This document shows, one piece after another, positions 4,459 to 36,858 of a stretch of 36,858 bases of DNA. The DNA comes from a virus. The DNA lies in the IMG/VR virus record IMGVR_UViG_3300044699_000020, positions 1 to 36,858 of that record; one strand, 5' to 3'. Numbering within the stretch: position 1 is the stretch's first letter; the number at the start of each line of letters is the position of its first letter. Both the position numbers and the translations under genes were made by a program. The notes below the pieces were generated by a model that worked only from the letters and a program-made list of their open reading frames with translations, was not told the origin of the DNA and ran no database searches.

Positions 4459-7042
4459 ATGGCAATTATCAGATATACGAAGGATGCTACTATTAGGTAT
4501 GCATATCTTAATATCTTCCCAGATCAGTTTAAAACTGAGGAGGAGAAGAAAGATGAGAGTTGGATTAAGAATACAATGGATTATTTTGCCAATAAGGCAT
4601 ATGCTGAGTATGTGAAGAATAGGGATACGTTTGTTGGTAATTATGATTTGGTTAAAGGTATTCTTAGAATGGAAGATTTCTATCAGGAACCTGATGTAAA
4701 GAGTTTCACTGATATGTTAGAGAAGGATATGGAGCTTCCTAAGTATGTTAAGCATTATTCCATAATGACTACACCAATTAATGAGTTAGTTGGAGAGTTG
4801 ACTAAAAGGCCAGATACATATAGAGTGAAGGCATTTGATGATGAATCCAAGGCTGAGGAGTTACAATATAAGACTCAGATATTACAGGATTATATTTTAG
4901 CTCAGGCTAGAGCAGAATTCTTGAGAAAGCTGCTATAGAAGGTGTAGAAATTGAGCCTGAACAGGTTCAACAGATGACAATGGAACAAATACAGGATGAG
5001 TTAACAGATTATACCTCTATGGCAGAGAAATGGTCTAATCATGTATTGACATGTACTAAAGCTGAATTTAATCTTAAGGAAAAGTCTGAGGATGCATTTA
5101 GAGACTTGATGATTTCTAATAGACAATTCTATCATTTGTATGAGGATAATTCAAAGTTAGGATTCAACATAGAAGTGTCTAATCCAAAGAATACGTGGTT
5201 CCTTACTACCCCAGATAGAAAATGGATATCAGATCCAACAGGAAGAGCACAAGGAGCTTATGCTGCAGGTACAGTACAAGTAATGGAACTATCAGAGATT
5301 ATAGAATCTATACCAGATTTGACTAAAGAAGAGATTGATCACTTAAGATCTTCACTACAGGATTATGGACTTATTAATGTTAGGGAGTCTAATTTAGGTA
5401 ATCCTAATGCAGCACCAGGTATTGATAGTATTCAATATGATACATTTGATCCATTAGTACTACAAACCAGAATGATCATTGAGTCTGAGATAAAAGAGAA
5501 TAATGATGGATTAAGAGATTTCTTAGGATTGACATCTAATGTATCTTCATTTGGTTATAAGTATGTAGTTATTAGATCATATTGGATATCTAAGAGAAAG
5601 ATAGGTAAGTTAGTTTATGTAGATGAGTTAGGACAACTACAGTCTATGCTTGTTGATGAGAATTATAAATCTAAAATCATTCCTACTCAAGTATCTTTAG
5701 AATGGGGGTGGGTTAATGAGTGGTATCAAGGAACTAAGATAGGTCCTGATATATATCATATTAAACCTTTTAAACTATTGGATTATTGTCCTATTATAGG
5801 GACAGTACATGAAATAAAGAATACAGAATCAAAATCTCTTATTGATTTAATGAAACCTTTCCAAGTGATTTATAATGTATGTATGAATCAATTGTTCCAG
5901 TTATTAGGAAAAGAGAAAGGTAAAGTACAATTGATGTCTATAAGACATGTACCCACTCCTAAGGATGGTGATGGACAAGATGCTTTAGATATGTGGGAAA
6001 TGGAAGCAAAAGAAAGAGGTGTTGTCTTTATAGATGATAGCCCTGAGAATCTTAAAGCTCCAAGCTCATTCAACCAATTTGCTGCATTAGATTTAACCAG
6101 AACCCAAGAGATACAATCCAGATATAACTTAGCTGTTCAAATGAAGAATGAATGTTGGGAGTTAGTAGGAATGTCAAAACAAAGAATGGGTAGTATCAGT
6201 GCTTCAGAATCTGCTACAGAACAAATACAGCCATCCAACAATCTTATTCACAAACAGAACCTTTATTTGTAGCCCATGAATATGTGATGGGACAATTGTA
6301 TCAGGCTATTATAGATGCTTCTCAATATATTGAATCCTCTAAGCCTCAATCAACAATCTCCTATGTTACAGGAGAAGGAGAAGCAGCTTTCATACAGGTG
6401 AATGGGAATGAACTTAAGTTTAGAGACTTAAAAGTGTTCTTGACTAATAGACCTGAAGATACTAAGATGTTTGAAGAAGTACGACTATTGTCTCAAGCTA
6501 TTATTCAGAATGGTGGAAGTGTATATGATATCATTGAACTTTATAGTACTAAGTCTATGAGAGCTATGAAGAAAACTTTCAAAGACTTGAGAGATAAACA
6601 AGAAGCTATGATGCAGCAACAAAATCAAATTAAACAACAAGAGCTTCAACAACAACAGCAACAATTCCAAATTCAAACGGAAGAAGCTGCTAGAATGAAA
6701 CAAGAAGAAACTGCCAATAAAAACTATCAAAATGAACTTGACAGAATCAATAAAAAAGAAGTGGCTCTTATTGGTGCTTTGGCTAGAAACCCAGAAGCAA
6801 CAGCTGACATTGATGAATCAGGGGTTGCAGATGCCCTTGAAATCTCTGATATGGCAAATGAAGAAGCAAGAGCATCAAGGGATTATAATGCTAAAATGTC
6901 AGAGATACAAGCTAAAACATCATCTGAACTCAATAAATTGCAACTTGAAAGGGAAAAACTCCAGGTTGATAGAGAAAACCAGAAGAATGACCTGGAAATA
7001 GCAAAAGTAAATGCTAGAAACAGGAATAATAAGAAAAAATAA
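4459..7042 (+). CDS. portal protein, frame broken twice
   Basis: Three consecutive frames read as one protein of about 860 residues: 4459 to about 4930, about 4935 to 6250, and about 6255 to 7042. Adding one base at each join restores RKAAIEGVEIEPEQVQ at the first and TEPLFVAHEYVMGQLY at the second. The protein forms the dodecameric DNA channel at one capsid vertex and docks TerL. Position (terL-portal-scaffold-MCP), length and the stem/crown-like central part fit crAss-like portals. The C-terminal 150 residues are a Gln-rich coiled coil (runs of Q near 6610-6670) followed by a basic tail. Two lost bases in one essential gene argue for sequencing error over programmed frameshifting. Confidence 0.88.
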
Positions 7043-10619: not shown

Positions 10620-11588
10620 ATGGCAAAGATTGGAAGAATAGCTGTTATCAAGAAAGAATATAGCAGCGCAGAAATGCAGACTATGCAAGGTGGTCTGTCT
10701 CAAAAAGGACTAACAAGAATTCCAGGTACAGGAGTCTTTAAATTTCCTTATAAGGAAACAGATGGAAGATATAGAACTGGATTAGATCCTGATGCAGCGT
10801 ATATAAGAAGGATACAAGATCCTGTTGAAAGACAATTGGAGATTGAGAAAGTTACAGAGGCTAGAAAAAGATTGGAATATGAATTAGGAGATATAGATTT
10901 AGGACCACGCTCTGCATTCTGGAATTATGGTTTAGCTACTTCTATGAATGATCAAACACATGTTCAACCAGTTAAATTAATGGATGGAGATAATTTGTTT
11001 GATTTTTCTGTTCCATTTCAGGAAATTACCTTTTTATGGTTAAGAGTACATCCAACAATAGCTTCCAGTTATCAGGCTTGGGAAAGAGGAGAATATCCTG
11101 CTGACACACAGTTTTATGTAGCTGATGAAGAAATTGAAAATCAAATTCTTTACAAAAAGAAAACTCTTATCAACAAAGCTATTGTTAAGTTTGATTCTAT
11201 GACAATAGAGAAAAAACGTAAAGTGGCTAGGTTATTAGGATTACCTGTAACTGATGATTCTCAGGAAGAGATGGTTTATAACCAGATAGATAATCTTCTT
11301 AAGAAGTCTGAATTTGATAAAGGTAAATATGCAGGATTGAATCCTGTTGAAGTGTTTAACAGATTTGCAGACATGCAAGAAAATCTTCTCCATATCAAAG
11401 ATTTGGTAAAGCAAGCTATTGCACATTCCATATACCGAGTGAAATCAAGTGGTAAAGTATATGAGGGAGAATTTGAATTAGCTATAGATGAAGATGAATT
11501 AGTGAAACACTTGGCAGATGAAAGTAATCAGGAAGATCTAATAGTATTAGAACAGAAACTGAAAACAAAAAAACTAGCTGCTATATAA
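10620..11588 (+). CDS. conserved crAss-like structural-module protein downstream of MCP
   Basis: A 322-residue soluble protein with a basic N-terminus (MAKIGRIAVIKKEYSSAE), a central segment rich in W and aromatic residues (FWNYGLATSMND, ITFLWLRVHP) and a helical, charged C-terminal half. It has no signal peptide or membrane span. Proteins with this opening and size follow the MCP in crAss-like genomes (remembered synteny), so a virion or head-completion role is likely, but the fold was not recognised. It is preceded by a 132-nt gap carrying the HNH-associated hairpin and followed after 10 nt by the next structural gene. Confidence 0.7.
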   Translation: MAKIGRIAVIKKEYSSAEMQTMQGGLSQKGLTRIPGTGVFKFPYKETDGRYRTGLDPDAAYIRRIQDPVERQLEIEKVTEARKRLEYELGDIDLGPRSAFWNYGLATSMNDQTHVQPVKLMDGDNLFDFSVPFQEITFLWLRVHPTIASSYQAWERGEYPADTQFYVADEEIENQILYKKKTLINKAIVKFDSMTIEKKRKVARLLGLPVTDDSQEEMVYNQIDNLLKKSEFDKGKYAGLNPVEVFNRFADMQENLLHIKDLVKQAIAHSIYRVKSSGKVYEGEFELAIDEDELVKHLADESNQEDLIVLEQKLKTKKLAAI

Positions 11589-12351: not shown

Positions 12352-13551
12352 ATGGCAGATTTCTCTTTAACCACGCTCTTCGTGGTGCCCAGTGGCTCAA
12401 CAATAGCTACTGCTGGTAGTACACAAGACTTGGCAGCAGGGCAAGTAGGTGTTTTTGGAACTAAGGCTAATGTCGCATATTCTGCATTAGCAGCAGGTGA
12501 TATGGCAGCAGTTCCTTATTTCTATGTAGCCCAAGGAAGACAGAACACATACTTGCAAGGAAGCAAGCGTTCTGACAAAATTAAAGGATGTGTAACAGGA
12601 ATGACCAATTGTCACTTAGGTAATGTTACTGAGTGGTATAAGGTTATTGGTTGTGGAACTCCTGTAGTACAAATCACTGATGTATCAGGATTTAATGTTC
12701 AATGTGGTGATGTAGTTACAGTGACTCTTAGAGCTCACTCTAGTTACTTAGACACTCTTTATTTTAATGGATTAACTAGATCAGCTACAGTACAAGCTCC
12801 TTGTTGTCAATGTGGTGCTGATCCTTGTGTTAACGTGGATGTTCCTGCTTTAATTGATCAGCTTATTGCTAAGTTTAAACAAGCAGCTCCTGGTAACAAT
12901 CCAGATAATATGATTCTTACTAATTTCTTTGATTTCCAAAGAGTAGGTACAGGTGCTGGTGCTATTCTTCGTATCACTGGAAAACCTTTGACAAAATATG
13001 GTGTTCCTTGTGATATTGCAGCATTTCCTTTTGAGTATGACAGAATGTGGTTCAGAACCTTTGTGTATGAAGGTCCTGCTACAACAGCAGACTATATTGT
13101 GGCAGATGCTTGTAATATAGTAGCAAATGCTGCAGTTGTACAAAGAGCTTCTTATGCTACAGGTACCCCTGAGGAAATTAGACAGTTAGAAAAGAACTAC
13201 TACAGCTATCAGGCAGGATACCTTAAGCATTTATACAGAATGATGGGGTATAACCAAAACTATGAATCATATGTAGTTGATACAGTTGCTGCTGTTCCAG
13301 CAGTTTATGATACATACTATATTAAATTCAATGAGTACTTCAAAGGAGAATACCAATGGGGTGATTTTATACCAACAGATGAGATGGTAATTATTGCTGC
13401 TGTTAAAGGTTCTGCTGAAGCTGCTGCTCTTGATGCTATTTTGGCTGCTGCATTAGGAACTCCTGCTGTAGAAAATGTTTGTCTTACAACAACTTCTACA
13501 ACTACTGTTGCTGGAACAACTACAACAACTACATCTACTTTATTCCCATAA
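12352..13551 (+). CDS. virion structural protein with a Thr-rich C-terminal tail
   Basis: A 399-residue protein. It has an N-terminal beta-rich domain (LFVVPSGSTIATAGSTQDLA, then VAQGRQNTYLQGSKRSDKIK), cysteine pairs (CCQCGADPC) near residues 151-159, an Ala-rich C-terminal domain, and a final 20-residue Thr/Ser run (TTTSTTTVAGTTTTTT). The same kind of Thr/Ser segment recurs in the proteins at 25826 and 27282. The gene lies in the head/tail-connection block and is followed by a strong terminator, suggesting high expression. The opening vaguely recalls phage sheath or tube proteins, but crAss-like phages have short tails, so an auxiliary capsid or tail-hub role is more likely. Confidence 0.62.
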   Translation: MADFSLTTLFVVPSGSTIATAGSTQDLAAGQVGVFGTKANVAYSALAAGDMAAVPYFYVAQGRQNTYLQGSKRSDKIKGCVTGMTNCHLGNVTEWYKVIGCGTPVVQITDVSGFNVQCGDVVTVTLRAHSSYLDTLYFNGLTRSATVQAPCCQCGADPCVNVDVPALIDQLIAKFKQAAPGNNPDNMILTNFFDFQRVGTGAGAILRITGKPLTKYGVPCDIAAFPFEYDRMWFRTFVYEGPATTADYIVADACNIVANAAVVQRASYATGTPEEIRQLEKNYYSYQAGYLKHLYRMMGYNQNYESYVVDTVAAVPAVYDTYYIKFNEYFKGEYQWGDFIPTDEMVIIAAVKGSAEAAALDAILAAALGTPAVENVCLTTTSTTTVAGTTTTTTSTLFP

Positions 13552-20450: not shown

Positions 20451-23400
20451 ATGAGAAGCTTTAAAAAGACACTTAGAAGTATTAGTACTAGTAATATCTA
20501 TACTAAAAGACTTAGAAACAGAACATCTCTTAACGGAGGTGTTACTGTTGATCGTTTTATTGCTGTTGATAGAATAAGAAATAGTTCTATAGGATTAGGA
20601 AGAGATATACTGAAGCAAGGTAATATTCCTGTTTCACCATATAATCTAGCATTATATACTGAAGAAGTAGATAATACTTATTGGAATAGAAATGGTATAA
20701 CAACAATTGTAGATGCTATTGCGAATCCTATAAATGGGGCTATTAATGCTGATAAAATAGTTACTACTGCTGCATCTACTGACCATGTTTTTAGTCGAAG
20801 TTTTACTTCTGTTGCTCCAAAAAATATAGATTATACATATAGTGTATATTCTAAAGCTGCTGAATATACATCAATTGCTATAGGACTTAGTGATAATGCA
20901 TCAGGTTTTGTTGTAGGCACTTTTAACTTATCAACTGGTGCTGCCTCAGGTTCTGCAAATAATGCATTTTTTACAAATTTAACTTGGACAACAGTAGATG
21001 CTGGTGATGGTTGGTTTAGGTGTATTGTAACTTTTAGATATATTGGTGCTAGTGCAATAACGGGAATAATATATAATTATGCTAAACAAAATGGTTCATA
21101 TTTAGGTGATGGTGTAAGTGGTATATATGTATGGGGAATGCAATTAGAACAAGGTTTAGTAGCAACTACATATCAGAGAACACCAATAAATACAATAGGT
21201 CAAGGAGCTTCATTTGTTTACAATCCATCAAGCTATGGAGAAGGTAAAAACTATTCTGTTTATCCACAGTTGAATAACTTCATTAAATTTAGTGAGGATT
21301 TTGGTAATGCGAATTGGGGAAAACAATCAGTTATCATAAGTTCAAATGTAATTGCTAATCCTATTAATGGCTTAACAACAGCTTCTAAATTAATAGAGAA
21401 TACTACTCTTCAACAACATATACTATCGTCAACAAATTATAGTTTTGCAAGTGGTAATTTTTTTACATTTTCTGTTTATGCAAAAGCAGGGGAAAGAAAT
21501 TCAATTCAATTAAGGGTAAATGATATTAATCAAGCAGTTGCAGTAGTAGTTGATTTAAATACAGGATTAATAACAACACCTCCGACAAGTTCATCAGATT
21601 TTACAAATGTTTCAGCTACAATTGTAAATGCAAATAATGGATGGTATAGAATAATATTAACAGCTAAATTTATAGGAACTACCAATTTAATTTTAAATCC
21701 TGCAATATATTTGTTTCCTACTGTAGCAGGAGATGGAACTTCAGGATTTTATATTTATGGTGCTCAACTTGAGAAAGGCTCAACAGCCACAACCTACCAA
21801 AGAACAACAGATGATATAATAGACTTTCAATTCACAAGAGCAACGACTTCAACAGCTACAAATAAACTAGGGGTAATTGAGGATAGTTGCTATAACTATA
21901 TATCTCAAAGTGAAACTTTAAATGTTGGGCCTTGGACACTGTTTAATACAACTGTATCTGCTAATCAAATCCTTGCACCTAACGGTGCTTTAACCGCAGA
22001 TAAAATAGTAGAAAGTAATACAAATGCAAGCCATCAATTATATCAAGTGTTTACTACAGGATTTTCAAGTATCAATACCACATTTACTTTCTCAGTCTAC
22101 ATGAAAGCAGCAGGCAGAACACAAGGGTATTTTCAAGTGTCTAATCAATCACTTTCTTTTCAGCAAAGTACTGTTATTGATTTAACAAACGGAACATATG
22201 TTAATGGTAGTCCTGGAGTGTCTGTAACAGACGTAGGTAACGGTTGGTATTTATTAAGCAAAAGTTATAATTCAAATAATGGCTTTGGATTCTTAATAGG
22301 CCCTGCATTAGCGGGCAGTCCAACATATTTAGGTAATGGAGTAGATGGAATATACGCATGGGGTGCTCAAGTTGAACAAGGCTCAACGCCAAGACCATAT
22401 CTAAAAACAACCAACAGATTAGCGGTACCTAGGATAGATTACTCTTTAGATTTAACAAAGCCTAGTTTATTGATTGAGCCACAAGCAACTAATTTAGCTT
22501 TACAAAGTGAGAATTTCAATGTATCATGGTCTAAAGGTCAAGTTACAATAGGTACTGATTTAGATATAGCTCCCAGTGGAGTTAATACAGCAGATAGAAT
22601 AATAGAGGGAAGTACCAATGCTAATCACATGGTAGGTAGTAGTTTTGCAAGTGTAAGTGGAAATACCTATACGTGGAGTATTTATGTTAAAAAATATACT
22701 GGAGTTTTAAATACAAGGAGGTATTTGCAATTATTGTTTTTGACTAATACAGGTGGAAGTACTGCATGGGGAGTAAATTTTGATTTACAAACTGGATTAG
22801 TAGCAGATACTAAACTTCAAAATCCAGCAGGTTCTCCCATTATAAATAATACTTATAATGTAATTGATAAAGATTCCTATTGGAGACTTAGCATTACTGC
22901 AACAATACAATTTAGTGGTACAAGTTATTTTAGAGCTGAGATGTCAAATACTGCAATACCTACATATAGTGGTTTTGCTGAGCCAACATATCTAGGAGAT
23001 GGAGTTTCTTATATAGTTCTTTGGGGAGCACAAATGGAATCTGGTTTAAGAGCCACAACATACATTCCTACTACAACAGCAACAGTAACAAGAAACGGAG
23101 AAACTTCTTTTGTTGATTTGTGGAATAATAACTTATTGAATAAAGATAACTTTACTTTATATTGGGAGGGAACATTATTAGATGCACAATCAACGAGTCC
23201 ATCATTTTGCTTGTCAGATACTACCACAGCTTTAAATACCAATCAGATTGGTTGGATTAATGCTGTAGTTCCTGTATACAGCGTAGCAAATACAAGGAGT
23301 ATCTTAGTTGATAGTAATGTAAGAAGTGGATTTAATAAGTTCCTTATTACATATGCTATAGGTATTGCTAACTTCTATATAAATGGAGTAAATGTTTGGT

Positions 23401-25739
23401 CTAATAGAAGTATACCTGTATTTGATTATAGATATTTAGTCTTAAATAATGGAGGAAGTGTATTTACAACAGATAAGATAGAGTTATATAAAGAAACTTT
23501 TAGTGATGCACAAGCTGTTACAAAAACTACTAATGCAGGAACAGTAATTACTGTACCATTTTTTGAATCTACTTGGAATACTAATAATACCTCTACTGGT
23601 TCATCTACTGCAACACAAATTAAATTACCTCTTATAGCATCAGGAATTTATAATATGTTCGTTGATTGGGGGGATAATACTTCAAGTCTTATCACTGTTT
23701 ATAACCAAGCAGAGGTAACACATACTTATGCAGTAGCAGGAACTTATAATATTAAGATTAAAGGTACTTGTATAGGATTTCAATTTGCTAATATTGGAGA
23801 TAGATTAAAGATCTTATCTATTGAAAAATGGGGTATTTTAAAATTAGGTAATTTAGGAAACTATTTCCAAGGTTGTGGAAACCTTACATTAGATTCTGTT
23901 TCTGATATTCTTGATTTAAGGGGAACAACGAATTTTAATGGTCTTTTTAATCAATGTGGAAAACTAGTAACTGTAAATAGAATTAATGAATGGGATACTT
24001 CTTTAGTTACAAATATGCAGTTTATGTTCTATCAAGCTTATTTATTCAATCAAAATCTTAATGGATTAAATACATCTAACGTTACCAACTTTACTTCTAT
24101 GTTTCAAAGTACTGCAGCCTTCAATAATGGTTTAGCTTCAGGAGTTGGTGGAACAATGAGTTTTAATACTTCTAATGCAACCACTTTAGCATCTATGTTT
24201 AGTTCAGCTACTTCATTTAATCAGGATGTAAGTAATTGGAATACAATAAATGTAACTTCTTTAGCAAGTACATTTTCTAGTGCAAATAAATTTAATAATG
24301 GATTGGCTCCAGCTGTACCAGGAACGTTAAATTGGAATACTTCCAAAGTTACAAATATGGATACTATGTTTGCTGCCACTACTTCATTCAACCAAAATAT
24401 AGGTTCTTGGGATGTAAGTAAAGTGACTACTTTTAATAATATGTTCCAAAATAATCAAGTTTTCAATAATGGTGGAAGTCCAAGTATCAACAATTGGCAG
24501 ATTAATACAACTGCACCAGTTATTATGTCTTCCATGTTCTATGTTACTGCGTTTAACCAGCCAATAAACTCTTGGAATGTAAGTACTGTTTCAACTATGG
24601 CGAGTATGTTCTATACTACTCCATTTAATCAGAATTTGAACAGTTGGACTCCGATTAACTGCACAAACTTCTCTATGATGTTTGCATCTACTCAATTCAA
24701 TAATGGATTAGCCCCTGGAGTTTCAGGCAACATGACTTGGACTATCAATACATCATCTCCTGTGAATATGGGTAATATGTTTGGGTTCACACCTAATAAT
24801 AATGGTTTCAATCAAAACATAGATTCGTGGGATGTAAGTCAAGTTACTAATATGGCGAGTATGTTCATAAATTGTAGAGTTTACAATCAGCCAATGAATA
24901 GTTGGAATACTGGCAAGGTTACAAACTATAATTCAATGTTTAGTGGAACTACTTCATTCAATAATGGACTTGCAGCAGGAGTTTCAGGAGATATGACTTG
25001 GACTGTTAATAGTACAACTCCTTGTAGTATGAACTCAATGTTTGGTAATCCTTCTCTTGTTAACAATGCCTTTAATCAAAATCTTAATTCTTGGAATACA
25101 AGTACTGTAACTGATATGGGTTCATTGTTTTATAATTGTAGAGTTTATAATCAACCAATGAATACTTGGGATGTCTCAAAAGTGACTAATTTTAATAGTA
25201 TGTTCAGTGCAGCTATAAGTTTCAATAATGGGTTAGCTCCTGCAGTTTCAGGAGTAATGCCTTGGATAATAAATACTACTAATGCAGTTACAATGGCTTC
25301 TATGTTTGGAACTGGCGTGGTATTTAATAATGCTTTTAACCAGGATATATCTAGTTGGGATACAAGTAAAGTTACTAATATGAGTGGTATGTTTAGAAGT
25401 GTTCAGACTTTTAATCAACCTATTGGTATTTGGAATACTTCTAGTGTTACTAATATGAATGATATGTTTGGAAATACTGCTGCAGGTTTCAATCAAGATA
25501 TAGGATCTTGGGATGTATCAAATGTCACAGACTTTAATTTATTTATGCAAAATAAACCTGTATCAGGTTTCTCAGCGTCTAACTTAGATGCTATATATAA
25601 TGGATGGAGTTCAAGACCTGTTAAACCAGGAATAACAATTACTTTTGGATCAGCTAAATATACATCAGCTTCAAGTGCTGGTAGGGCTATATTAACAGGA
25701 GCACCAAATAACTGGGTAATCACTGATGGTGGTATATAA
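20451..25739 (+). CDS. giant BspA-like leucine-rich-repeat adhesin/fibre protein
   Basis: A 1762-residue single intact frame starting 1 nt after the fibre stop. Residues 1-60 are a basic N-terminus without a signal peptide. Residues ~64-880 hold four tandem ~200-residue beta modules sharing FSVYxKA, DAGDGWFR-like and WGAQLEQGxxATTYQRT motifs (carbohydrate-binding-like). Residues ~885-1030 are a LamG-like lectin module. Residues ~1038-1110 contain a PKD-like VDWGDNTS...HTYAVAGTYNIKI. Residues ~1180-1720 are about 19 BspA/DUF285 repeats (consensus SWDVSxVTNMxxMFxxxxxFNQ), capped by AILTGAPNNWVITDGGI. It probably binds a host-surface glycan or protein as part of the virion. With no secretion signal, it is more likely a fibre than a cell-surface protein. 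Confidence 0.85.
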   Translation: MRSFKKTLRSISTSNIYTKRLRNRTSLNGGVTVDRFIAVDRIRNSSIGLGRDILKQGNIPVSPYNLALYTEEVDNTYWNRNGITTIVDAIANPINGAINADKIVTTAASTDHVFSRSFTSVAPKNIDYTYSVYSKAAEYTSIAIGLSDNASGFVVGTFNLSTGAASGSANNAFFTNLTWTTVDAGDGWFRCIVTFRYIGASAITGIIYNYAKQNGSYLGDGVSGIYVWGMQLEQGLVATTYQRTPINTIGQGASFVYNPSSYGEGKNYSVYPQLNNFIKFSEDFGNANWGKQSVIISSNVIANPINGLTTASKLIENTTLQQHILSSTNYSFASGNFFTFSVYAKAGERNSIQLRVNDINQAVAVVVDLNTGLITTPPTSSSDFTNVSATIVNANNGWYRIILTAKFIGTTNLILNPAIYLFPTVAGDGTSGFYIYGAQLEKGSTATTYQRTTDDIIDFQFTRATTSTATNKLGVIEDSCYNYISQSETLNVGPWTLFNTTVSANQILAPNGALTADKIVESNTNASHQLYQVFTTGFSSINTTFTFSVYMKAAGRTQGYFQVSNQSLSFQQSTVIDLTNGTYVNGSPGVSVTDVGNGWYLLSKSYNSNNGFGFLIGPALAGSPTYLGNGVDGIYAWGAQVEQGSTPRPYLKTTNRLAVPRIDYSLDLTKPSLLIEPQATNLALQSENFNVSWSKGQVTIGTDLDIAPSGVNTADRIIEGSTNANHMVGSSFASVSGNTYTWSIYVKKYTGVLNTRRYLQLLFLTNTGGSTAWGVNFDLQTGLVADTKLQNPAGSPIINNTYNVIDKDSYWRLSITATIQFSGTSYFRAEMSNTAIPTYSGFAEPTYLGDGVSYIVLWGAQMESGLRATTYIPTTTATVTRNGETSFVDLWNNNLLNKDNFTLYWEGTLLDAQSTSPSFCLSDTTTALNTNQIGWINAVVPVYSVANTRSILVDSNVRSGFNKFLITYAIGIANFYINGVNVWSNRSIPVFDYRYLVLNNGGSVFTTDKIELYKETFSDAQAVTKTTNAGTVITVPFFESTWNTNNTSTGSSTATQIKLPLIASGIYNMFVDWGDNTSSLITVYNQAEVTHTYAVAGTYNIKIKGTCIGFQFANIGDRLKILSIEKWGILKLGNLGNYFQGCGNLTLDSVSDILDLRGTTNFNGLFNQCGKLVTVNRINEWDTSLVTNMQFMFYQAYLFNQNLNGLNTSNVTNFTSMFQSTAAFNNGLASGVGGTMSFNTSNATTLASMFSSATSFNQDVSNWNTINVTSLASTFSSANKFNNGLAPAVPGTLNWNTSKVTNMDTMFAATTSFNQNIGSWDVSKVTTFNNMFQNNQVFNNGGSPSINNWQINTTAPVIMSSMFYVTAFNQPINSWNVSTVSTMASMFYTTPFNQNLNSWTPINCTNFSMMFASTQFNNGLAPGVSGNMTWTINTSSPVNMGNMFGFTPNNNGFNQNIDSWDVSQVTNMASMFINCRVYNQPMNSWNTGKVTNYNSMFSGTTSFNNGLAAGVSGDMTWTVNSTTPCSMNSMFGNPSLVNNAFNQNLNSWNTSTVTDMGSLFYNCRVYNQPMNTWDVSKVTNFNSMFSAAISFNNGLAPAVSGVMPWIINTTNAVTMASMFGTGVVFNNAFNQDISSWDTSKVTNMSGMFRSVQTFNQPIGIWNTSSVTNMNDMFGNTAAGFNQDIGSWDVSNVTDFNLFMQNKPVSGFSASNLDAIYNGWSSRPVKPGITITFGSAKYTSASSAGRAILTGAPNNWVITDGGI

Positions 25740-25825: not shown

Positions 25826-26854
25826 ATGGTAGGGGTAAGATCAAAAGTAGCTCTTGAATTTGATGCAAGAGATGAGAGAACGGGTATAGTGGAAATCCAG
25901 GTGACTGGATGGAACTATATCCCACAAGGCCAGACGTATATTATAAATGTAGTTGATTATGCAATCACTATTATAGAGATACCAACTGGTGAGATTGATG
26001 AGGATGGAAATCCAGTTATGATGGAGTTTGAAACTAAAGAAATCATTAAGAATAATGTTGTCTACTATAATCCTGGAGCTTATGATGCTAAGGTTAAGGA
26101 TGTAGGTATAGATATTCAAAGTGATGAAAGTTTCACAGATCAGTTTGAGAATTTCTTAAGTGAGTTTATGTTACAATTAGTTCAGGATGAGCTTTTGTAT
26201 GGTTCTGAAGCAGATGATTGGGAAGTGATTTCTGATGATACTACTACAACCACTACATCTATGGTTCCTACTACCTCCAGTACAACTACTGTATTAGGTC
26301 AGACTACTAGTACTACAACCACTTTGTTTGGTCAAACTACAACTAGTACAACTACTCTTTTAGGACAAACTACTACAAGTAGTACAACACAAGTTGGGAA
26401 TACTACTACTACTAGTTCTACTACAGGTGGTGGTAACACTACTACTAGTTCTACTACTGTACTTGGGACTACTACTAGTACTACTACTATATTTGGTCAA
26501 ACTACTAGTACCAGTACAACTGTTATTGTAGATCCTAATGTAACTACTACTAGTAGCACAACTAATGCTAATCAGAGTACAACTAGTAGCACTACTAAAG
26601 CTAGTACAACTACAAGTACTACTACTGTGTATGTTGATCCACGTATTACAACTACTAGTACTACTAATATTGTAGATCCACATGTCACTAGTACTTCTAC
26701 TACTGTTATTGTAGATCCTCGTATTACTACAACTAGTACTACTGCTATTGTGGATCCACGTATTACTACTACTACTAGTACTACTCACAAGTGTCACAGT
26801 TATTGTAAAGAGCATCATCTTACAACTACTACAACAACTACAATTATGAGATAG
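25826..26854 (+). CDS. protein with long Thr/Ser-rich repetitive C-terminal domain
   Basis: A 342-residue protein. Residues 1-135 are a beta-rich domain (IVEIQVTGWNYIPQG, YAITIIEIPTG) ending in an acidic helix. Residues ~138-330 are almost entirely Thr/Ser, broken by two families of short words: xLGQTTTSTTT and VDPRITTTSTT. The tail is a His/Cys cluster (HKCHSYCKEHHL) followed by Thr7. The region is probably an extended, possibly O-glycosylated stalk, with the N-terminal domain docking to the virion. The upstream 86-nt gap is AT-rich without a clear promoter. Related Thr/Ser segments occur at 13484-13550 and 27500-27610. Function unknown. Confidence 0.75.
   Translation: MVGVRSKVALEFDARDERTGIVEIQVTGWNYIPQGQTYIINVVDYAITIIEIPTGEIDEDGNPVMMEFETKEIIKNNVVYYNPGAYDAKVKDVGIDIQSDESFTDQFENFLSEFMLQLVQDELLYGSEADDWEVISDDTTTTTTSMVPTTSSTTTVLGQTTSTTTTLFGQTTTSTTTLLGQTTTSSTTQVGNTTTTSSTTGGGNTTTSSTTVLGTTTSTTTIFGQTTSTSTTVIVDPNVTTTSSTTNANQSTTSSTTKASTTTSTTTVYVDPRITTTSTTNIVDPHVTSTSTTVIVDPRITTTSTTAIVDPRITTTTSTTHKCHSYCKEHHLTTTTTTTIMR
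26240..26850 (+). repeat. ACT/ACA/AGT triplet-rich low-complexity DNA encoding the Thr/Ser domain
   Basis: About 600 bp dominated by ACT, ACA and AGT codons. ACTAGT recurs many times, and higher-order units GTAGATCC(T/A)CGTATTAC recur near 26640, 26720 and 26755. Because the unit is a multiple of three, slippage would change stalk length without breaking the frame. Antisense open frames here are composition artefacts. Confidence 0.8.
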
Positions 26855-27281: not shown

Positions 27282-27866
27282 ATGAATGCTGTAATAAGAT
27301 TAACAACTGCAGGTCCTGATACAGGCCCATTTTATTTATATTCTAATATAGATGGTTATATAGGTGCATTTGCATCAAACCTAACTAGATCTCAATTGAT
27401 AGCTGGTTATGTAACTGATAAGCTACCTAATGGTTCTACTATAGTAAGAATTAAATCTTTTGGTGTATGCAATAATTATGTTGATGTTACAGTACCTTCT
27501 ACAATCACTACAACCACTATAGCTCCTACTACCACTACATCAACTACTATATTAGTTTCTACCACTACTAGTACTACTATAGCAGGTACAACTACTACAA
27601 CTACTACAGTATTTCCTACTCTATATAGGGTATCTGCTTCTTGTTGTAATCCTCCTAATAACACAGAAAGATTGGTTAATCTTCCTGGTCTTGATGGTTA
27701 TGGACCTACAGCAACCTTTACAGGTGATGATGGATTCCCATATACATTAATAAGTAGTATTAAAGTAGCAGGTACTGCTAATGTTTTCCAACATCCTGTA
27801 GATAGGGATATTTATCCTTCTTGTTTTGAATGGATTACTGTTTATGTAAATTGTCCTGGACAATAA
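27282..27866 (+). CDS. two-domain protein joined by a Thr-rich linker (paralogue A)
   Basis: 194 residues. The N-terminal ~72 residues share with the next gene the pattern TGPFxLYSxIDG, SNxxRSxLxxGY, TIxRxxSxGxC, then NxVDV. A ~42-residue Thr linker (about residues 74-112, TTTTTIAPTTTTSTT-like) follows, then a C-terminal domain with SCCNPPNN, GDDGFPYTLISSIKVAG and a final ITVYVNCPGQ. The layout of conserved base, flexible stalk and different tip looks like a short accessory fibre or decoration protein, but no virion evidence exists. It has no signal peptide or membrane span. Confidence 0.7.
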   Translation: MNAVIRLTTAGPDTGPFYLYSNIDGYIGAFASNLTRSQLIAGYVTDKLPNGSTIVRIKSFGVCNNYVDVTVPSTITTTTIAPTTTTSTTILVSTTTSTTIAGTTTTTTTVFPTLYRVSASCCNPPNNTERLVNLPGLDGYGPTATFTGDDGFPYTLISSIKVAGTANVFQHPVDRDIYPSCFEWITVYVNCPGQ

Positions 27867-28399: not shown

Positions 28400-28438
28400 A
28401 ACCCTTCAATTATTTTTTTAAGTTGAAGGGTTTTTTTT
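28400..28438 (+). terminator. strong rho-independent terminator
   Basis: AACCCTTCAA (28400-28409) pairs perfectly with TTGAAGGGTT (28423-28432), with a 13-nt loop, followed by a run of eight T (28431-28438). It closes the operon ending at 28371. Confidence 0.88.
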
Positions 28439-28467
28439 GTGCTATGTAATTAAAATGATTATCTTTA
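28436..28467 (+). promoter_or_regulatory. candidate promoter overlapping the terminator T-tract
   Basis: TTTG (28436-28439) is built from the end of the terminator's T-run. TATCTTTA (28460-28467) follows after 20 nt and matches the Bacteroidota TAnnTTTG box except for the last base. It would start a message with a ~180-nt leader for the secreted-protein gene at 28654. Confidence 0.55.
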
Positions 28468-28522
28468 CAACATAATTCTAAACCATTTTATATGAAAAAA
28501 GATTGCATTACCCTAGTACTTA

Positions 28523-28552
28523 GTACAATTGTGAAATGTGCACAATCAGTAC
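28523..28552 (+). promoter_or_regulatory. imperfect dyad in the leader of the secreted-protein gene
   Basis: GTAC-a-ATTGTG (28523-28533), a 7-nt spacer, then CACAAT-ca-GTAC (28541-28552). It could be a protein-binding operator or the first stem of a leader RNA upstream of the terminator-like hairpin at 28582. Confidence 0.4.
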
Positions 28553-28581
28553 CTTTTGATGGTTAACCCCTATATGTATAA

Positions 28582-28653: not shown

Positions 28654-31268
28654 ATGGAAAAATTATTACCCTGTAGACTCAAAGTGACTCTACTATTTAT
28701 GTCTTTCGTAGCATTATTTACTACGAATAATTTGTCAGCTCAAGTGTGTCTTGATTCAAGAACACTTAATCCTGTAACTCTACAGCCTGCTCAGTTTGTG
28801 TGTGCTGGAGATAATCTATTGTGGACTACCACTTCTATTGGTTCTAGTGCTGGTTTAGCTATTACATGGACACTTGTAGATGGTACTGGTGGTGCATTCT
28901 TCGTAGCATCTGGTACTACTACTTATAGTACAGTGGTTAATGCTGGTACTCCTAACATTAACAGTGCTTTAGTTACTATGGGGCCTAATGCAGGTTCTGT
29001 AACTGTTACTATGCAGTTTGATGCTAACCCTAATCCTAACTCTTGCTCTTCTTCTGGTATAGCTAAAGTTCTTCAGGTAACTGGAACTCCTTCTGTTCAG
29101 AGATGTGCTCAGGATTTAGGCTCTATTCAAGCTACAGCTTTGACTAATCTTGGTTTCCCTATTGGTACTGTTAGTCTTCCTCCTTATCACTTTACATTGA
29201 ATCCTGGTGGTTTAACAAATGATACTGGTTTATTCTCAGGACTAGCTGCTGGTGTCTATACTGTTACTGTTACAGATGATGATGGATGTACTGCAACCTC
29301 TGGAAATATTAATCTTGTTAACCCTCAGGTAGTTGCTGTAAATGCTATATGCCCTGGTGATGTAACAAATAACTCTTGTTTTTATGCAGATCAAGCAGCT
29401 CTTGATGCAGCTGTTGCAGCTTGGAGAGCAGGATTTAGTTTTACTGGTGGTACTGGTGTAGTAACTGAAACTAGAAATGAGATAGGTGCTGCTCTTTTAT
29501 GTGGTGGAACTCTTACTATAAACTATAGTGTAATAGATGAATGTCAACAAGTTGATAACTGTAGTGCTTCATTTATAGTTACTGCTCCTGCTGTTGTAAA
29601 TGCACTTCTTCCTAATAATAGAGAAATTAATGCTTGTGATGTTATAGATGCAGATGCACTTAGAGCTCTTGTTGATGCTTATAGAGCTGAATTTAGAGCT
29701 GAAGGTGGTTGTGCTCCTAGAGTAGAATTGGATCCTTATGTTCTGCCTAATTTATGTGATGGTGTAATTAATATCACTGGACGTATCATAGACAGATGTA
29801 ATGTAAATATTCCTATAGCTAGACAGTTTATTATTAGACCTGCTGTTGCTTTGCAATTTGAAGCTCCTAATAATGATATCAAAGCTGCTTGTTTCTACCA
29901 AAATCAAGCTGAAGTGGTTGCTGCCTTCAATATTTGGGTACAAGGATTTAGAATCATAAGTGGTGGATGTGCTCCAACTATAGAAGTTCTTCCTGCTGTT
30001 ATTCCTAATTTCTGTGGTGGTGTAGTTACTGTTCGTGCTATTGTTAGAGACAGATGTTTTGATCAAAGAGAAATAGCTGCACAATTTGGTGTAGCAGATG
30101 CTACTCCTCCAGTAATTAATAACTGTCCTCCAGGTGCTCAATTAGGTTGTAATCCTATTATTCCTGTAGCATCTGTACTTGATGTTACATCTGCTTGTCC
30201 TTTCACAACTGATGTTCAAGAAAACATTGTGGCTGATGGTTGTAACAGAACTCTAACCAGAGTGTACGTTGTTGCAAATGGATGTATGGTGAAGCAAGAT
30301 GTACTCAAATATTTAATTATACAATAGATACTGATGTTCCTGTTATTACAGCTACAGGTAGTACACTTAACTTAGGAGAAAATCCTACAGCTGAACAAAT
30401 TGAAGCTGCATTAGGTGTTGCTACAATAGCAGATGCTTGTGGTGCTAATCTAGTAGTAACAACTGATCCTGTAATAGAAACAGAACCTTGTCACTTCTCT
30501 CAAACAAGAAGATGGAATGGTTCTGATAATTGTCTACATGTAGCAGCAGAAGTTACTCGTACAGTAACTTGGACAACTTCTGGTTGTGAATTGAATGGTT
30601 GTACTCTAGGATACTGGAAAAACCATACTCAAGCTTGGAATTGTTATTCAACATGTACATTGTATAAAGATGTATTCTCTGCTTCAACACTTGATGCTAA
30701 CTTAACATTACAACAAGCACTTAACTTAGGTGGTGGTGGTTGTAATAACTTAGCACGTCAATCTGTAGCAGCTTTATTGAACATTTGTGAAGGTTTACCT
30801 TATGGTGTTCGTACTACAGATGAGTTGATTGCACTTGTTAATGCAGCATTTACTAATGGTACATGTGGTGCTCTAGGTGCTCAATTGGATGCATTCAATA
30901 ATGAAGGTGGTGTAAATCACTGTAATGTTGAGAAATCTCCAAACACAACAGCTCCTTCAGCAGGATGTGGTGTTGGTGCTTCAAAAGATAAAGGAAAATC
31001 TCATCATTCTGGTTTAGAAGGAGAAGGAAAACTAAATAACTTTAAAGTTTATCCAAATCCTTTTACAAATACATTCAATGTTGGTAGTGATGCTACTGAT
31101 AATGTGAGTATGACTGTGTATGATTTACTAGGAAGAAAAATTGATGATCAAACAATTATCCCTGGTAATGAAGGGTTACCATTTGGTCAAGATTATCCAA
31201 CTGGTGTATATACCACTCTGTTTACCTTTGATGGTGGAACAAAGTTCATTAGAATTATAAAACAATAA
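28654..31268 (+). CDS. secreted Cys-rich repeat protein with T9SS sorting domain, one frameshift
   Basis: About 870 residues in two frames (28654 to ~30275, then ~30280 to 31268); one added base near 30275 joins VVANGC to GEARCTQIFNYT. A signal peptide (1-29, LLFMSFVALFTT, cleavage after LSA) is followed by beta-rich domains. Then come three or more ~90-residue repeats with an ACxxxxxAL helix, GGCAPxVE, PNxCxG and DRC landmarks. A GYWKNH domain (30598-30915) with RQSVAALLN follows. The C-terminal ~78 residues form a type A T9SS sorting domain (FKVYPNPFTNTF...VYDLLGRKI...PTGVYTTLF...KFIRIIKQ). Sec exports it to the periplasm and the host T9SS would place it on the cell surface. The gene has its own promoter and terminators. 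Superinfection exclusion or surface alteration is plausible. Confidence 0.88.
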
Positions 31269-31290
31269 TCTTCTTCATTCTTGTTTGGAA

Positions 31291-31326
31291 AGACCCTTAG
31301 TGTAAAAGCTAAGGGTTTTTCTTTTT
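31291..31326 (+). terminator. rho-independent terminator after the secreted-protein gene
   Basis: ACCCTTAG (31293-31300) pairs with CTAAGGGT (31309-31316), with an 8-nt loop, extendable by A-T and G-U pairs, followed by T5-C-T5 (31316-31326). Confidence 0.85.
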
Positions 31327-31375: not shown

Positions 31376-32102
31376 ATGTCTACATTAAGAAGTCTTGTGA
31401 GTGATGTTAGATCTACTCATAAACTATTATCTACTGACTCTTTTATAACCGATAGAGCCATTTCTTCCGAGATTAGAAACAACACTTTACTCTTGGTAAA
31501 GCGTGAAACTAACCTAAGAAAGTTATGGGCAACTGACTCTATATTCACTACAATATCATGTATGGAAATGATTGAAGTTCCCATATCAGAATGTTGTAAT
31601 TACGTTGCAACATTGCACTATAGCAAGAACTAAACTCAAAGTCCCTAAGATAGCAGAGGGTAATTACCAATATGTTATTCAGGGTGTTTATTCTATTAAT
31701 GTAATGAGTGGTAAAGGAAAGAGATTAAAAGAAATATCCATTAATAGATATCTTAATCTATTAAAACTACGTATAATCAAGAGTGAGGAATACTTTTGGA
31801 TATCTAATGATTACCTATATGTAACCAATCCTAATATACAAACAATAAGATTAGTAGCTATGTTTGAAAGTGATGTACCCAGTGATGTTCTGTACCCAGA
31901 ATGTTGCTGTGGTACTAATTTCACTAATGAAGATTTACTGTAGAAATCCATTGGATAGAGAGTTCTCAATTCCTGGATACCTCAGAACACAGGTGCTCTC
32001 ATTAACATCACAGAAATTACTACAAACTACTTCAATCTTAAACAAGACATAGCTAATCAAGGATTAGAAGGACAATCAACTAATTCCCCACAAGGAGCAT
32101 GA
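31376..32102 (+). CDS. conserved crAss-like tail ring protein, frame broken three times
   Basis: The composite of about 242 residues opens MSTLRSLVSDVRSTHKLL, then LLLVKRETNLRKLWATDS and VPISECCNYVA. A shift near 31610 leads to CTIARTKLKVPKIAEGNYQY. A shift near 31940 leads to REFSIPGYLRTQVLSLTS. A shift near 32025 leads to YFNLKQDIANQGLEG, ending at TGA 32100-32102. This series of motifs is recalled as a highly conserved tail-module protein of crAss-like phages, probably one of the stacked ring proteins below the portal. The stop overlaps the next start (ATGA). A candidate promoter precedes it, so it starts a new unit after the secreted-protein cassette. Confidence 0.78.
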
Positions 32103-32581
32103 GAGTAGCTAATGACTATAGAACCACTAGTAAGGAGACATATGATGTCTTCTGTAAGAAGTATCCAAATATTAATGTACCTTTTGATACTTGGAAGAAA
32201 GTAATATACTCTTTCAATGGCCTGTATAAGGAACATCTTCTAGAAACTGGTGACAGAGAGAAGCTTCCTCAAGGATTAGGTCAATTTGCCATTATTAAAA
32301 AGAAAAGAAGAAAAGTTGTTAGTCATAATGGTACAGATTATATTAATCTTCCTATAGATTGGAAGAAAACAAAAGAGAAAGGAAAAATAATATATAATTT
32401 TAATTTTCATACAGAGGGTTATTTCTTTGGGTGGCATTGGTTTAAAGAGAATGCTACATTCAGGCATGCTGATTTATGGTATTTTAAAGCATGTAGATTC
32501 AGCTCAAGACTAATAACAGAATACATAAATAAGGATAATAAGTACCAACATCTCTATAAAGAATGGAAGTTGGTAAAATAA
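32099..32581 (+). CDS. conserved crAss-like tail-module protein
   Basis: A 160-residue intact protein with a helical N-terminus (SKETYDVFCKKYPN, FDTWKKVIYSFNGLY), a basic loop (IIKKKRRKVV) and an aromatic-rich C-terminal half (FHTEGYFFGWHWFKENATF). It is conserved between the ring protein and the adaptor gene in crAss-like phages (remembered synteny). The basic patch suggests contact with DNA or another acidic virion part, but no catalytic motif is visible. A tail-hub or ring-associated role is inferred from position only. It starts by ATGA overlap and its stop lies 8 nt before the next start. Confidence 0.72.
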   Translation: MRVANDYRTTSKETYDVFCKKYPNINVPFDTWKKVIYSFNGLYKEHLLETGDREKLPQGLGQFAIIKKKRRKVVSHNGTDYINLPIDWKKTKEKGKIIYNFNFHTEGYFFGWHWFKENATFRHADLWYFKACRFSSRLITEYINKDNKYQHLYKEWKLVK

Positions 32582-32589
32582 AAACAATC

Positions 32590-33452
32590 ATGTCTTACTA
32601 CTATAAATATAATTTCGTCAGTCCAGAACCTATTTATTCTGTGGTTAAAGAGGAGCTTAAGAGCTACTTTGATACAGGTGCAATAGATGATTTACTATTT
32701 CCTGTATATCTGGACAAATGTTTAAGAAGATTGGGAAGATCTTCTTATAAAATAGTGCCTGTTATCTTGGATGTGTTTGATTTTGAAGCACGTCTTCCAG
32801 ATAACTTCTATGCTGTTAGAGAAGCTTGGCTTTGTGCTGAGATGCCCTTAAGACCTTATCAGTCTCCAAATGCATTCTATTCACAAACTAATTGTGCTAC
32901 AGTTATACAAATTGGACCTACAATTACAGATCAAACCAGGATCATGTACCAATATAGATTGTGGTACTCTGCCTACAGATTGTAATGATTGTCCTCCTAA
33001 TATGGTACAAGTATGTATATAAAACAACTCATGAGATACAAAGATCTGTTACCAAAACCCATCTTCTTAAACCAGGTAATATATCAGTCCACAAAGATTG
33101 CTCTATGGACTGCAGAAATCTTGGTTCGTCTTCTATAGATTCTTTTGATATTAGAGATAATAAATTTATTACCAATTTCAGAGATGGTACAGTGTTTCTT
33201 GTTATGTATGAGATAGATTATGATGATCTGGGAAATCAATTGGTTCCTGATAATTTTCGTATCAGTGAATTTGTTGAAGCATTTATTAAATTCAAAGTAT
33301 TTGAAGTGCTGACTAATCAGATTACTGATGAGACTTTTAATCAGATGCAACAGAAAATGATACTCTATAAACAGCTGGCTGATGAGGCTTATATAATGGC
33401 TGATATAGAAATCAAGAAACAAGATGTATATGCTAAGCAAAGAAGATTATAA
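32590..33452 (+). CDS. head-tail adaptor/tail tubular protein (P22 gp4-like), frame broken twice
   Basis: About 287 residues. The ATG at 32590 (MSYYYKYNFVSPEPIYSVV) is preferred over 32563 because it matches the remembered family start and avoids overlapping the upstream gene. KSYFDTGAIDDLLFP, RLPDNFYAVREAW and FYSQTNC are landmarks of the crAss-like adaptor. Shifts near 32938 and 33015 must be bridged (GSCTNIDCGTLPTDCNDC lies between them) to reach KTTHEIQRSVTKTHLLKPG and the helical C-terminus. It forms the dodecameric ring under the portal and connects to the muzzle. Both shifts are corrected by removing one base. Confidence 0.82.
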
Positions 33453-33472
33453 AAGATAAGAATAGACTCAAT

Positions 33473-33535
33473 ATGTATGAATTACCTAGTAGGGTAAGAC
33501 GTGATGGTTATAATAAATATTTCAGAAATGAATAA
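33473..33535 (+). CDS. possible 20-residue basic microprotein
   Basis: The ATG at 33473 opens a 20-codon frame (ELPSRVRRDGYNKYFRNE) ending in TAA 33533-33535, located exactly between the adaptor and muzzle genes. It is very basic, has no signal and is too short for a domain call. It could instead be part of a neighbouring gene displaced by an indel, given the many breaks here. Low confidence. Confidence 0.35.
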   Translation: MYELPSRVRRDGYNKYFRNE

Positions 33536-33537
33536 TC

Positions 33538-36500
33538 ATGGCAGAAGATAAAAGGTAACAGTAATTTTCAACATAATTAGGCAGAGTTGGACTTAATATG
33601 GATTCTACCCCTGATCAGATTGAGAAGGGGTCACTATCCTATGCTCTTAATGCTGCTCTAGAGAATTTTGATTCTAATAGTATTAATTATCAGAATGAAC
33701 CTGGTAATGAATTCTGTTTAACATTCCCTAGGAACTATATACTTATAGGAACTCATTATATACAGGAGAGAAATAAACATATCTTTATGTTAGCTAACCC
33801 AACTACTAATGATAGTGAGATTGGGTATATGGATAATCATGACTGTGTTTATAAAACTCTTATTAATGATCCATGCTTGGGATTTGATGTAAACACACCA
33901 ATTCCTAAAATGGTCATAGAACTACTAATTGTTCTACAGAAATATATTGGCCTGATCAACATGGAAGAAGATATCTTGATATAGACAATATTCCATATAA
34001 GCTTACTTCAGGAACTAAAGTGTGTGATCCTATATACAGCACTGAAATAGATTGTAAATCAATTGTCTGTACAACCTAATTTTGAAATACCTTTAATAAG
34101 TATTAAGGGTATTATGAATGGAGGTAGTATAAACAGCTGGAACAGTACAGTTTGCTATTCAGTATGGAGATGCATTGGGTAATCCCTATACATCTTACTA
34201 TTCTGTTACTAATCCTACTCCTATAGCTGATCCTAATCTAATTACAGTTAATTTTGATTATCCTGTAGGTAAATCTGTTGCTCTTGAGATAGATCATATA
34301 GATACATCTGGAAGATTTGGATATTTCAATCTTGCAGTGATTAAAACAGTTAATGATATTACCTCTGTAGAGTTGGTAGGAACATTTCCTATAACTAATG
34401 ATCTACAGGAAATAATCTATACAGGGCAGAAAGTAGATAATATAAGACTTACAGTTAATGATATATTTGAGAAGTTCCCTGTATATGATAGAGCTGATGA
34501 TATTACAACAGCATCTGATGTATTGATATGGAAAGGAGTGTCTTCTCATGAGAGAATCAGTTATCAGAAGATTGCTAATAAGATAACTCTTCAATGGCAA
34601 ACATGGAGAATACCTCCTACAGAGAACTATGCTGATGAGGTGAATGCAACAAACTTAAGAGGATATATGAGAGATGAAATATATCCATTTGAGTTTGTTC
34701 CTATATTAAAGAGTGGTAACAAACTGATGCATTTCCATATACCTGGTAGAGTTAGAAATGAATTAGAATCTAGTTTACCATTGGTATATAGAAATAATCC
34801 TGATTTTATCTCTGCTGATCCAGATAGTGAATATGAACCTTATTGGAAGATATATAACACTGCTACTAATCTAGGTTTCTCTGCTGGATATAGTTCTGAT
34901 GAGGGGTATGAAGGACCATATCAATATGGTAATTTTGCATTCTGGGAATCTGAACTAACCTACCCATGTGATGAAGAAATATGGGGAGAATTAGCAGGAG
35001 AGAAGATAAGACATCATAAATTTCCTGATGTATTGGTTTCTCCTATTTTTGAATCTGATGGATTCAGTGGAATTGATAATCTGGTAATGGGGAACAGAGC
35101 TGTATTTCCTATTGGTGTAAAAATAAATATAGCTCAAATTAGATTGCTTATAGAAGAGTCAGATTTAACACAAGAACAAAAAGATGATATTGTAGGGTTT
35201 AAAATAGTTAGAGGAAATAGAGGTACAAACAAGTCTGTAGTTTGCCAAAGGTATCCTCCGTAATGTTAATAAGTACACTAGAGAGGAGCAAGACTTCTAC
35301 TTTCCAAACTATCCCTATAATGATATGCATGAAGATCCTTTCTTAAATGCTATTAATAATGCCTGGTCTGCAGAGTGTAAATCTTATACTGCTGAAGTAA
35401 CATCATTATCTCCTCCAGACAGTACTTCTTCTGTCCCATATGTAAGAATACAATTTGCTAGTTGTAGTAACAATAAAACTGATTCTAAGGTAATAGAATC
35501 AATAGGATCATATGAGATTTGTTCTCTTGATATTCCTATTAAAGTATCCCCTGGTGGGAGTGTAAAATTGGTGAATCAGATTATGAAGAATGGAATATAG
35601 TATCAAGTGGAGATCCTTCATCATTCTGTCAAGGATATAGAGCACAATGGAGAGATCAATATAATGTTGTTCATACAGAATGGGTAAGTGGATGGCCTAC
35701 AAATGAATATATTAATGCACAAGTTAAAAAAGGAACTAAACCCGTATGTATAGAAAATTGTGATGCGTGTGGAAAGTCAATTTTTAAAACAGGTGATATA
35801 ATTGGTTCTACTAGTTGTAAGACAGAAACACCTTTACCAGCTTTAACAACTCATAATGATGTTCCATATAGACTTATATTTAAACTCTCCTGAAACTAAT
35901 TTTGCACAACCCTTCTTAGGAGATGTTCTTAAGTTAGAAAGTGTAATGTATGGTAAAGGAAGAGCTCATTTTGTACAGGTAAAGGATAATGCTAAGTATA
36001 GATTGCTTACAGAAGAAGCTCAGAGAGATGCTTTGAAAAGTGCTCAGGCTGTAGGTAATATTACCAATCCTAACAATGCAGCTGCAATGTTTACTGTATA
36101 TCAATCTTATCTCACTATATATATTAATGGAATAACTAAAAAGAATTATGCATATTCATTTAATTCCATAGCTGATTATAATCATGCTGAAGGAGTTCCT
36201 AATAACCAAGGAGTTAAACAGAGAATGATAGATCTTAAGAGATATCTTATTCCTGTTATACAGTCTGTGGGAGAAGAGGATATTAATATAAACAATTATA
36301 ACAGAGAAACTTCTGTTTATATAAAAACAGATGAAGATGTAAGTCCTCTACCTTTTCCTGATAGTAGTCCTCCTATGTTAAATGGTGGTATATCAAAAAT
36401 GAAGGAGTATTCCAGATTTACTATTGGTGGTACATTTCATTGTGCCAGTCCTCAACTTGAGCAGGATATTAATGTAATATCATATTATGCCTCTATTAAG

Positions 36501-36858
36501 AATATCTTTATCAACCAATGGGGACAGATATATTCTTATGAGACTATTGATACAGGATTTCAAAGAAATTTAAGTACAGCTGAGTCTGAAGCTACTGTAT
36601 TTGGTGGAGATACATTTATTACCAGATTTGCTTTCAAGACTAAGCTTCCTTTCTTTGTTGATAATAGAGTGGGGGCTCCTGATGAGAGTGATATATTCTA
36701 TGATGAACTTGGTAATGTAGCCTATCCTAAATACTGGCACTCAGCTAGATCTATTTTAAAAGATTATTCGGTTGAAGGTTTAGGTACACTCACCAATATA
36801 ATTTCATATAAAGCACATAACTTTGATTGTCCTAATGATCAGTCACTAAAACCAGGAC
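33538..36858 (+). CDS. muzzle/stabilization protein, 5' part, frame broken at least seven times, runs off the window
   Basis: Frames add up to more than 1100 residues. ATG 33538 gives MAEDKR, then GNSNFQHN, then GLNMDSTPDQIEKGSLSYA after shifts near 33555 and 33580. Further breaks lie near 33935, 34070, 34135, 35245, 35580 and 35885, with long clean stretches between them (34175-35240; 35890 to the end, still open). Landmarks include ALNAALENFDSNSINYQNEPG, ILIGTHYIQERNKHIF, FPVYDRADDI and FKIVRGNRGTNKSV-type segments. This is the very large tail-nozzle ('muzzle', often annotated stabilization) protein of crAss-like phages, positioned after the adaptor. It closes the tail channel and is a beta-rich virion component. 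Confidence 0.82.

Follow-up and report, generated by a model that had tools for sequence, protein, structure and literature searches.

A putative phage-encoded cargo of the host type IX secretion system and its homologues in other phage contigs

In Bacteroidota bearing a type IX secretion system (T9SS), proteins destined for this route are taken across the inner membrane by Sec and then across the outer membrane by the T9SS. Phage-encoded T9SS cargo has already been described. Cryophage (MT820023), a 76-kb Bacteroidetes phage from cryoconite reported in 2020, carries three variable genes with T9SS type A sorting domains, for which its authors already proposed a hijacking of the host and, possibly, superinfection exclusion (PMC7468147). 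A year earlier, in 2019, T9SS sorting-domain proteins were reported in BACON-carrying gut phage contigs (cluster 2), situated near head genes (PMC6949934). These earlier cases found in the literature are annotations only. The locus discussed here belongs to a linear virus record of 36,858 bases that derives from an environmental sample, the whole of which record was analysed and is referred to as the window. It resembles Cryophage in encoding a type A sorting domain within a variable accessory gene, but the Cryophage cargoes, compared by their published description, are an endoglucanase, a GH39 and a PA14 protein, whereas the window encodes a Cys-rich HYR/GYWKNH protein. The BACON phages likewise place T9SS sorting domains in gut Bacteroidota phages, there in association with BACON, for which the window cargo has no match. 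A third likeness is to chromosomal GYWKNH proteins of Flavobacterium and Christiangramia (L090, L089, L092 and others), which have the same helical domain and a sorting-domain-like tail, and which are 40–47% identical over the aligned part (tblastn); these are chromosomal, whereas the phage copies form a separate, long-branched clade in a sequence tree. What is new here, as judged from sequence, is a family of phage copies with apparent selection on the sorting tag, a single probable origin and a moron-like cassette. Export of phage genes via a dedicated host secretion system, if true, would be an under-studied route to change the infected cell, and since the tag appears to be kept by selection in five related copies, the idea lends itself to a direct test in laboratory Flavobacterium, using T9SS mutants.

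The cargo region of the window, 28654–31268, holds two overlapping ORFs of 557 and 328 aa in different frames (Table 1), of which the first is 37% identical to the intact homologue at L002 and the second 42–55% identical to the four phage homologues known. The preliminary description had treated this region as a single gene, and this holds for the relatives, which read it as one ORF of 792–874 aa, but not for the window itself, where the frame breaks near position 30285; the L002 homologue (intact, 874 aa) aligns to both window ORFs over nearly their full length. Cys-rich repeats had also been proposed, and a match to HYR_4C (PF23237), below the cut-off in the window and above it in L085 and L087, bears this out. 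For the GYWKNH domain a Pfam scan returned no family, and no mention of the motif was found in the literature searched. A short ORF of 24 codons lies just upstream of the cargo gene, at 28492–28566; it begins like a signal peptide (MKKDCITLVLSTIVKCAQS), has a weak hairpin and T run behind it, and may be a leader peptide or a remnant.

Table 1. Features of the cargo locus and its borders (positions in the window).
Feature	Positions	Strand	Evidence
Left flanking phage gene	27877-28371	+	In G001 and G009 its homologues lie immediately before the 31376 gene
Intrinsic terminator closing the upstream tail-gene unit	28400-28439	+	12-bp stem, T run, -14.8 kcal/mol, z -3.75
Candidate Bacteroidota-type promoter, TTTG-N20-TATCTTTA	28436-28467	+	Pattern match; weak
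Predicted signal peptide, 29 residues, cleavage LSA/Q (Q-rule)	28654-28740	+	Heuristic Q-rule scan
5' part of cargo gene: signal peptide, N-terminal domain, Cys-rich Ig/HYR-like repeats	28654-30327	+	ORF of 557 aa
Frameshift joining the two ORFs, probably an assembly or sequencing error	30282-30300	+	Alignment to intact homologues
3' part of cargo gene: last Cys-rich repeat, GYWKNH helical domain, sorting domain	30282-31268	+	ORF of 328 aa
HYR-like domain, 4 cysteines, below cut-off	30420-30566	+	PF23237, 19.3 bits (cut-off 27)
GCTLGYWKNH helical domain, also present in Bacteroidota secreted proteins	30588-30980	+	Alignment; model pLDDT ~85-98 mostly
T9SS type A C-terminal sorting domain	31047-31265	+	TIGR04183; PF18962; fold match to FspA, NucA and RemA CTDs
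Intrinsic terminator ending the cargo unit	31287-31326	+	15-bp stem, T run, -21.4 kcal/mol, z -6.44
Right flanking phage gene, frameshifted in the window	31376-32090	+	Halves 83% and 55% identical, in two frames, to the intact G001 gene

The C-terminus of the cargo had been read as a canonical T9SS sorting domain, a reading that was to stand or fall with a match to the known sorting-domain families. A scan of the virus record aligned the type A family TIGR04183 over its full length (1–72 of 72) at 40.3 bits, and a protein scan of the 328-aa ORF gave 36.6 bits, against a cut-off of 23; PF18962 scored 29.1 bits on the window protein, above its gathering cut-off of 27. The type B family TIGR04131 was absent from the matches at E ≤ 1 in a profile scan of the same protein. 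All five phage copies (the window and its four homologues) exceed the cut-off for TIGR04183/PF18962, and the position of the domain at the very C-terminus is that of a T9SS type A cargo. The best match in a search against sequences of solved structures was a T9SS-bound C-terminal domain (CTD), 8glj_D (E 0.0017).

A predicted structure is in keeping with this assignment. Modelling of the last 226 residues of the window protein from an alignment of 33 sequences gave a confident model (pLDDT 86.7), in which the helical GYWKNH domain is joined through a disordered linker to a seven-strand sandwich. This sandwich superimposes on the T9SS-bound CTDs 8glj, 8glk and 8gl6, those of FspA, NucA and RemA, with TM scores (by target) of 0.77, 0.74 and 0.72, and a second structure comparison yielded Z values of 8.3 (8glj) and 8.9 (8glk). 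The modelled fold thus supports the identity of the sorting domain as a T9SS CTD but is not decisive by itself, since the PDB matches also include many unrelated Ig-like sandwiches scoring about as high. A full-length model of the L085 protein (pLDDT 43.7) was unusable.

At the other end of the protein, the predicted signal peptide reads MEKLLPCRLKVTLLFMSFVALFTTNNLSA followed by Q, and the cargo ORF is the only one in the window to pass a Q-rule signal-peptide scan, a heuristic of the authors' own rather than a trained predictor; the Bacteroidota signal peptide and the sorting domain of the preliminary description are therefore both retained, the former by this heuristic. Alignment and scan place a predicted A/Q cleavage site in five of five phage copies (LSA/Q in the window and L086, TFA/Q in L002, SYA/Q in L085 and VFA/Q in L087), and these predicted sites agree with the Q-rule published for the signal peptidase I substrates of Bacteroidetes (PMC5837995, PMC10653852).

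With a predicted Sec signal peptide at one end and a type A sorting domain at the other, the cargo is likely exported through the host T9SS, so that the infected cell would probably display a viral protein on its outer surface. The cargo cassette would be transcribed on its own after infection, and its product made with a Sec signal peptide that is cleaved before Gln. The host T9SS, assumed to be present, would then recognise the type A sorting domain and carry the protein over the outer membrane, after which it would either stay on the infected cell's surface or be released. The displayed form may be envisaged as rod-like, built of Cys-rich Ig/HYR-like repeats together with the GYWKNH helical domain. 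Expression, secretion and anchoring are steps that we infer.

The last of these steps is where one alternative departs, namely that the product is a secreted effector not attached to the cell, released, for instance, as a binder of glycans or rival phages. Both release and anchoring occur among type A cargo of the T9SS, but domain scans of the window copy and its relatives found no enzyme domain in the cargo proteins, and the repeat-rod architecture would suit attachment better, making release the unlikely outcome of the two. If the cargo is indeed displayed, its effect is a matter for guesswork: it may, quite tentatively, change the cell surface in a way that blocks other phages, while the guess that it makes infected cells stick is more doubtful still. 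Superinfection exclusion, adhesion and altered gliding, the roles put forward in the preliminary description, are conjectural, as is its restriction of the host to T9SS-bearing lineages.

A search space of 2.9 million viral contigs contained the family in four other phage contigs, G001 (73 kb), G051 (27 kb), G052 (95 kb) and G053 (51 kb), in each of which the cargo gene is an intact single ORF that passes TIGR04183. The large terminase subunits (TerL) of G001 and G052 are 72–78% identical to that of the window and the TerL of G053 is remote (26%); G051 is a short contig without TerL whose neighbouring genes, by eye, are common with G001. Only one of the 80 records found by TerL, again G001, has a sorting domain at or above the cut-off, although many of these records are fragments and the true share may be higher. 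Absence of the domain from the other 79 suggests that the cargo gene is dispensable. Among isolate phages tblastn found no cargo gene, and TIGR04183 reached its cut-off in none of the six isolate or named phage genomes tested. In L087 the T9SS cargo gene is followed, after about 35 bases, by a phage tmRNA gene (10702–11030; Rfam RF00023, 83.8 bits).

Relatives of the C-terminal region, comprising the GYWKNH and sorting domains, occur in more than 40 contigs of Bacteroidota, mostly of Flavobacteriaceae and Hymenobacteraceae. A whole-protein search of genome contigs found nothing, and the C-terminal alignment used as query found 79 loci in such contigs. A tree of 48 sequences unites the five phage copies in one clade (support 100/99) that is present in all 200 bootstrap trees examined, its sister being a Flavobacterium gene whose contig carries ordinary chromosomal genes. 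The simplest reading of this tree is a single capture from a Flavobacteriia-like donor, followed by spread among phages including the remote lineage of G053. The gene is also a mosaic, as the DNA of L085 and L086 is ~99% identical over ~500 bases near the start and 45–67% identical in the middle.

Selection along the gene is uneven. Over the six pairs formed by the four intact copies, dN/dS is 0.13–0.41 in the last 75 codons and 0.57–0.68 in the rest, a contrast drawn from ~74 codons, partly saturated, of a mosaic gene (in two pairs the synonymous sites are saturated, and the 0.41 given for them is a raw pN/pS). For four pairs, at most 0.5% of same-length blocks elsewhere are as constrained by pN/pS, the values for the other two being 6.5% and 26%. 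Ratios for the sorting domain of the window copy (0.23–0.59) are less clear than those of the intact copies. Overall, the address tag appears to be kept by selection, as the most constrained part of the protein.

The genomic setting of the cargo gene bears on whether it might belong to the virion instead. It had been placed inside the tail module, and in the window it does lie among virion genes, but this position is not conserved in relatives and seems incidental. The genes flanking it adjoin in relatives, ~110 bases apart in G001 and ~20 in G009, and the junction is without a cargo gene in G001, G002 and G009. In G001 the cargo gene lies outside the virion gene block, on the opposite strand to TerL and ~17 kb away from it; in G052 and G053 it is again on the opposite strand, ~15–18 kb from TerL. 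Because the flanks adjoin in relatives and the cargo gene is found elsewhere in G001, G052 and G053, it is best described as a predicted insertion into a permissive site of the window rather than as a tail gene that relatives conserve. G002 has an HNH-type ORF between the two flanking-gene homologues; this HNH endonuclease-like ORF (L176:5885-6460), located at the window's cargo site, makes the site a likely insertion hot spot.

These positions weigh against regarding the protein as a virion (tail or fibre) component that gained a host adhesin together with its tail domain, the sorting domain being a structural Ig module. Ig-like domains are common on virions, and in the window the gene follows two paralogues of a tail-module gene; the conserved place in the tail module expected of a tail protein was, however, not seen across relatives, all copies have a cleavable-type signal peptide, the sorting domain is the most constrained part, and the gene is missing from nearly all of the TerL-related records, so that a virion role is decidedly improbable.

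The cargo unit, by comparison, is predicted to be a moron-like accessory cassette between two terminators. As in morons, it sits between phage genes that are adjacent in relatives. Of the moron's own promoter and terminator, terminators are clear on both sides, with strong hairpins spanning 28400–28432 and 31287–31322, and the promoter is a pattern match only, to the generally known Bacteroidota-type consensus, with four regular-expression matches in the 36.9-kb window; a sigma-70 promoter scan showed no excess over shuffled sequences.

Three of the phages (G001, G051 and G052) also encode, within ~7 kb of the cargo gene and in G051 right beside it, a small protein that resembles an outer-membrane barrel and has a Q-rule signal peptide. 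These proteins of ~200 aa (L085:5458-6066, L086:16046-16654, L002:17061-17699) have a weak OmpA_like match and a beta-barrel-like C-terminus, and a sequence search from the L085 copy matched only the L085 and L086 contigs. The proximity of the barrel-like protein fits surface remodelling. The fullest version of the surface-display reading is a mobile moron family, passed between distant Bacteroidota-phage lineages, that remodels the infected surface via the host T9SS, with a barrel nearby in three phages, thereby excluding competitors or sticking cells together; as a whole it is a possibility to be held with caution.

The frame break near 30285 is most simply a sequencing or assembly error, and probably not a loss of the cargo gene, since at least seven similar frame changes occur in other virion genes of the window (queried with proteins of two relatives) that are intact in those relatives. 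The portal gene and those beginning at 31376, 32563 and 33580 are frame-broken in the window and form one ORF each in relatives (broken virion genes: 4459–7042, 31376–32090, 32563–33529, 33580–36857), so that gene calls on this contig need care. A recently captured host gene decaying without a role could likewise explain a frameshifted window copy and rarity in relatives, but the four intact copies, purifying selection that is strongest on the sorting domain, and the occurrence of frameshifts contig-wide, in genes that are essential, led to the rejection of this very improbable account. Host DNA joined into the phage contig by misassembly, a concern raised in the preliminary description, is rejected as very unlikely, for although Bacteroidota chromosomes are the usual home of this protein family, the phage genes on both flanks are syntenic and adjoin in relatives, and the nearest homologues lie in the four other phage contigs (52–57% identity by alignment, against ≤43% for hosts) within a phage-only clade. 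The proposal that a phage gene addresses its product to the host T9SS is upheld by the sorting domain, the Q-rule peptide, the four intact homologues, the purifying selection and the phage insertion site taken together.

The phage itself had been called crAss-like, a designation that survives in part. Its TerL is ~26–30% identical to Crassvirales and Lightbulbvirus records, and its portal and major capsid protein (MCP) match PHROG head families, but tblastn matched the MCP to no Crassvirales record; with TerL and portal only remotely related, the phage appears only loosely crAss-like. The sole annotated phage with an MCP like that of the window is Leptolyngbya phage Lbo-JY46 (PP438436.1, L187), which is listed with the cyanobacterial host Leptolyngbya boryana and has a TerL that is 40% identical. 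This likeness to a phage with a cyanobacterial host may bear on the host assignment or on the breadth of the lineage. Elsewhere in the window, a 1762-aa protein (20451–25739) combines phage head spike fibre domains with many DUF285/PARCEL repeats, and long Thr/Ser runs (TTTTSTTT) occur in the virion-module proteins at 25826–26854, 27282–27866 and 12352–13551 and also in their homologues of G001 and G002.
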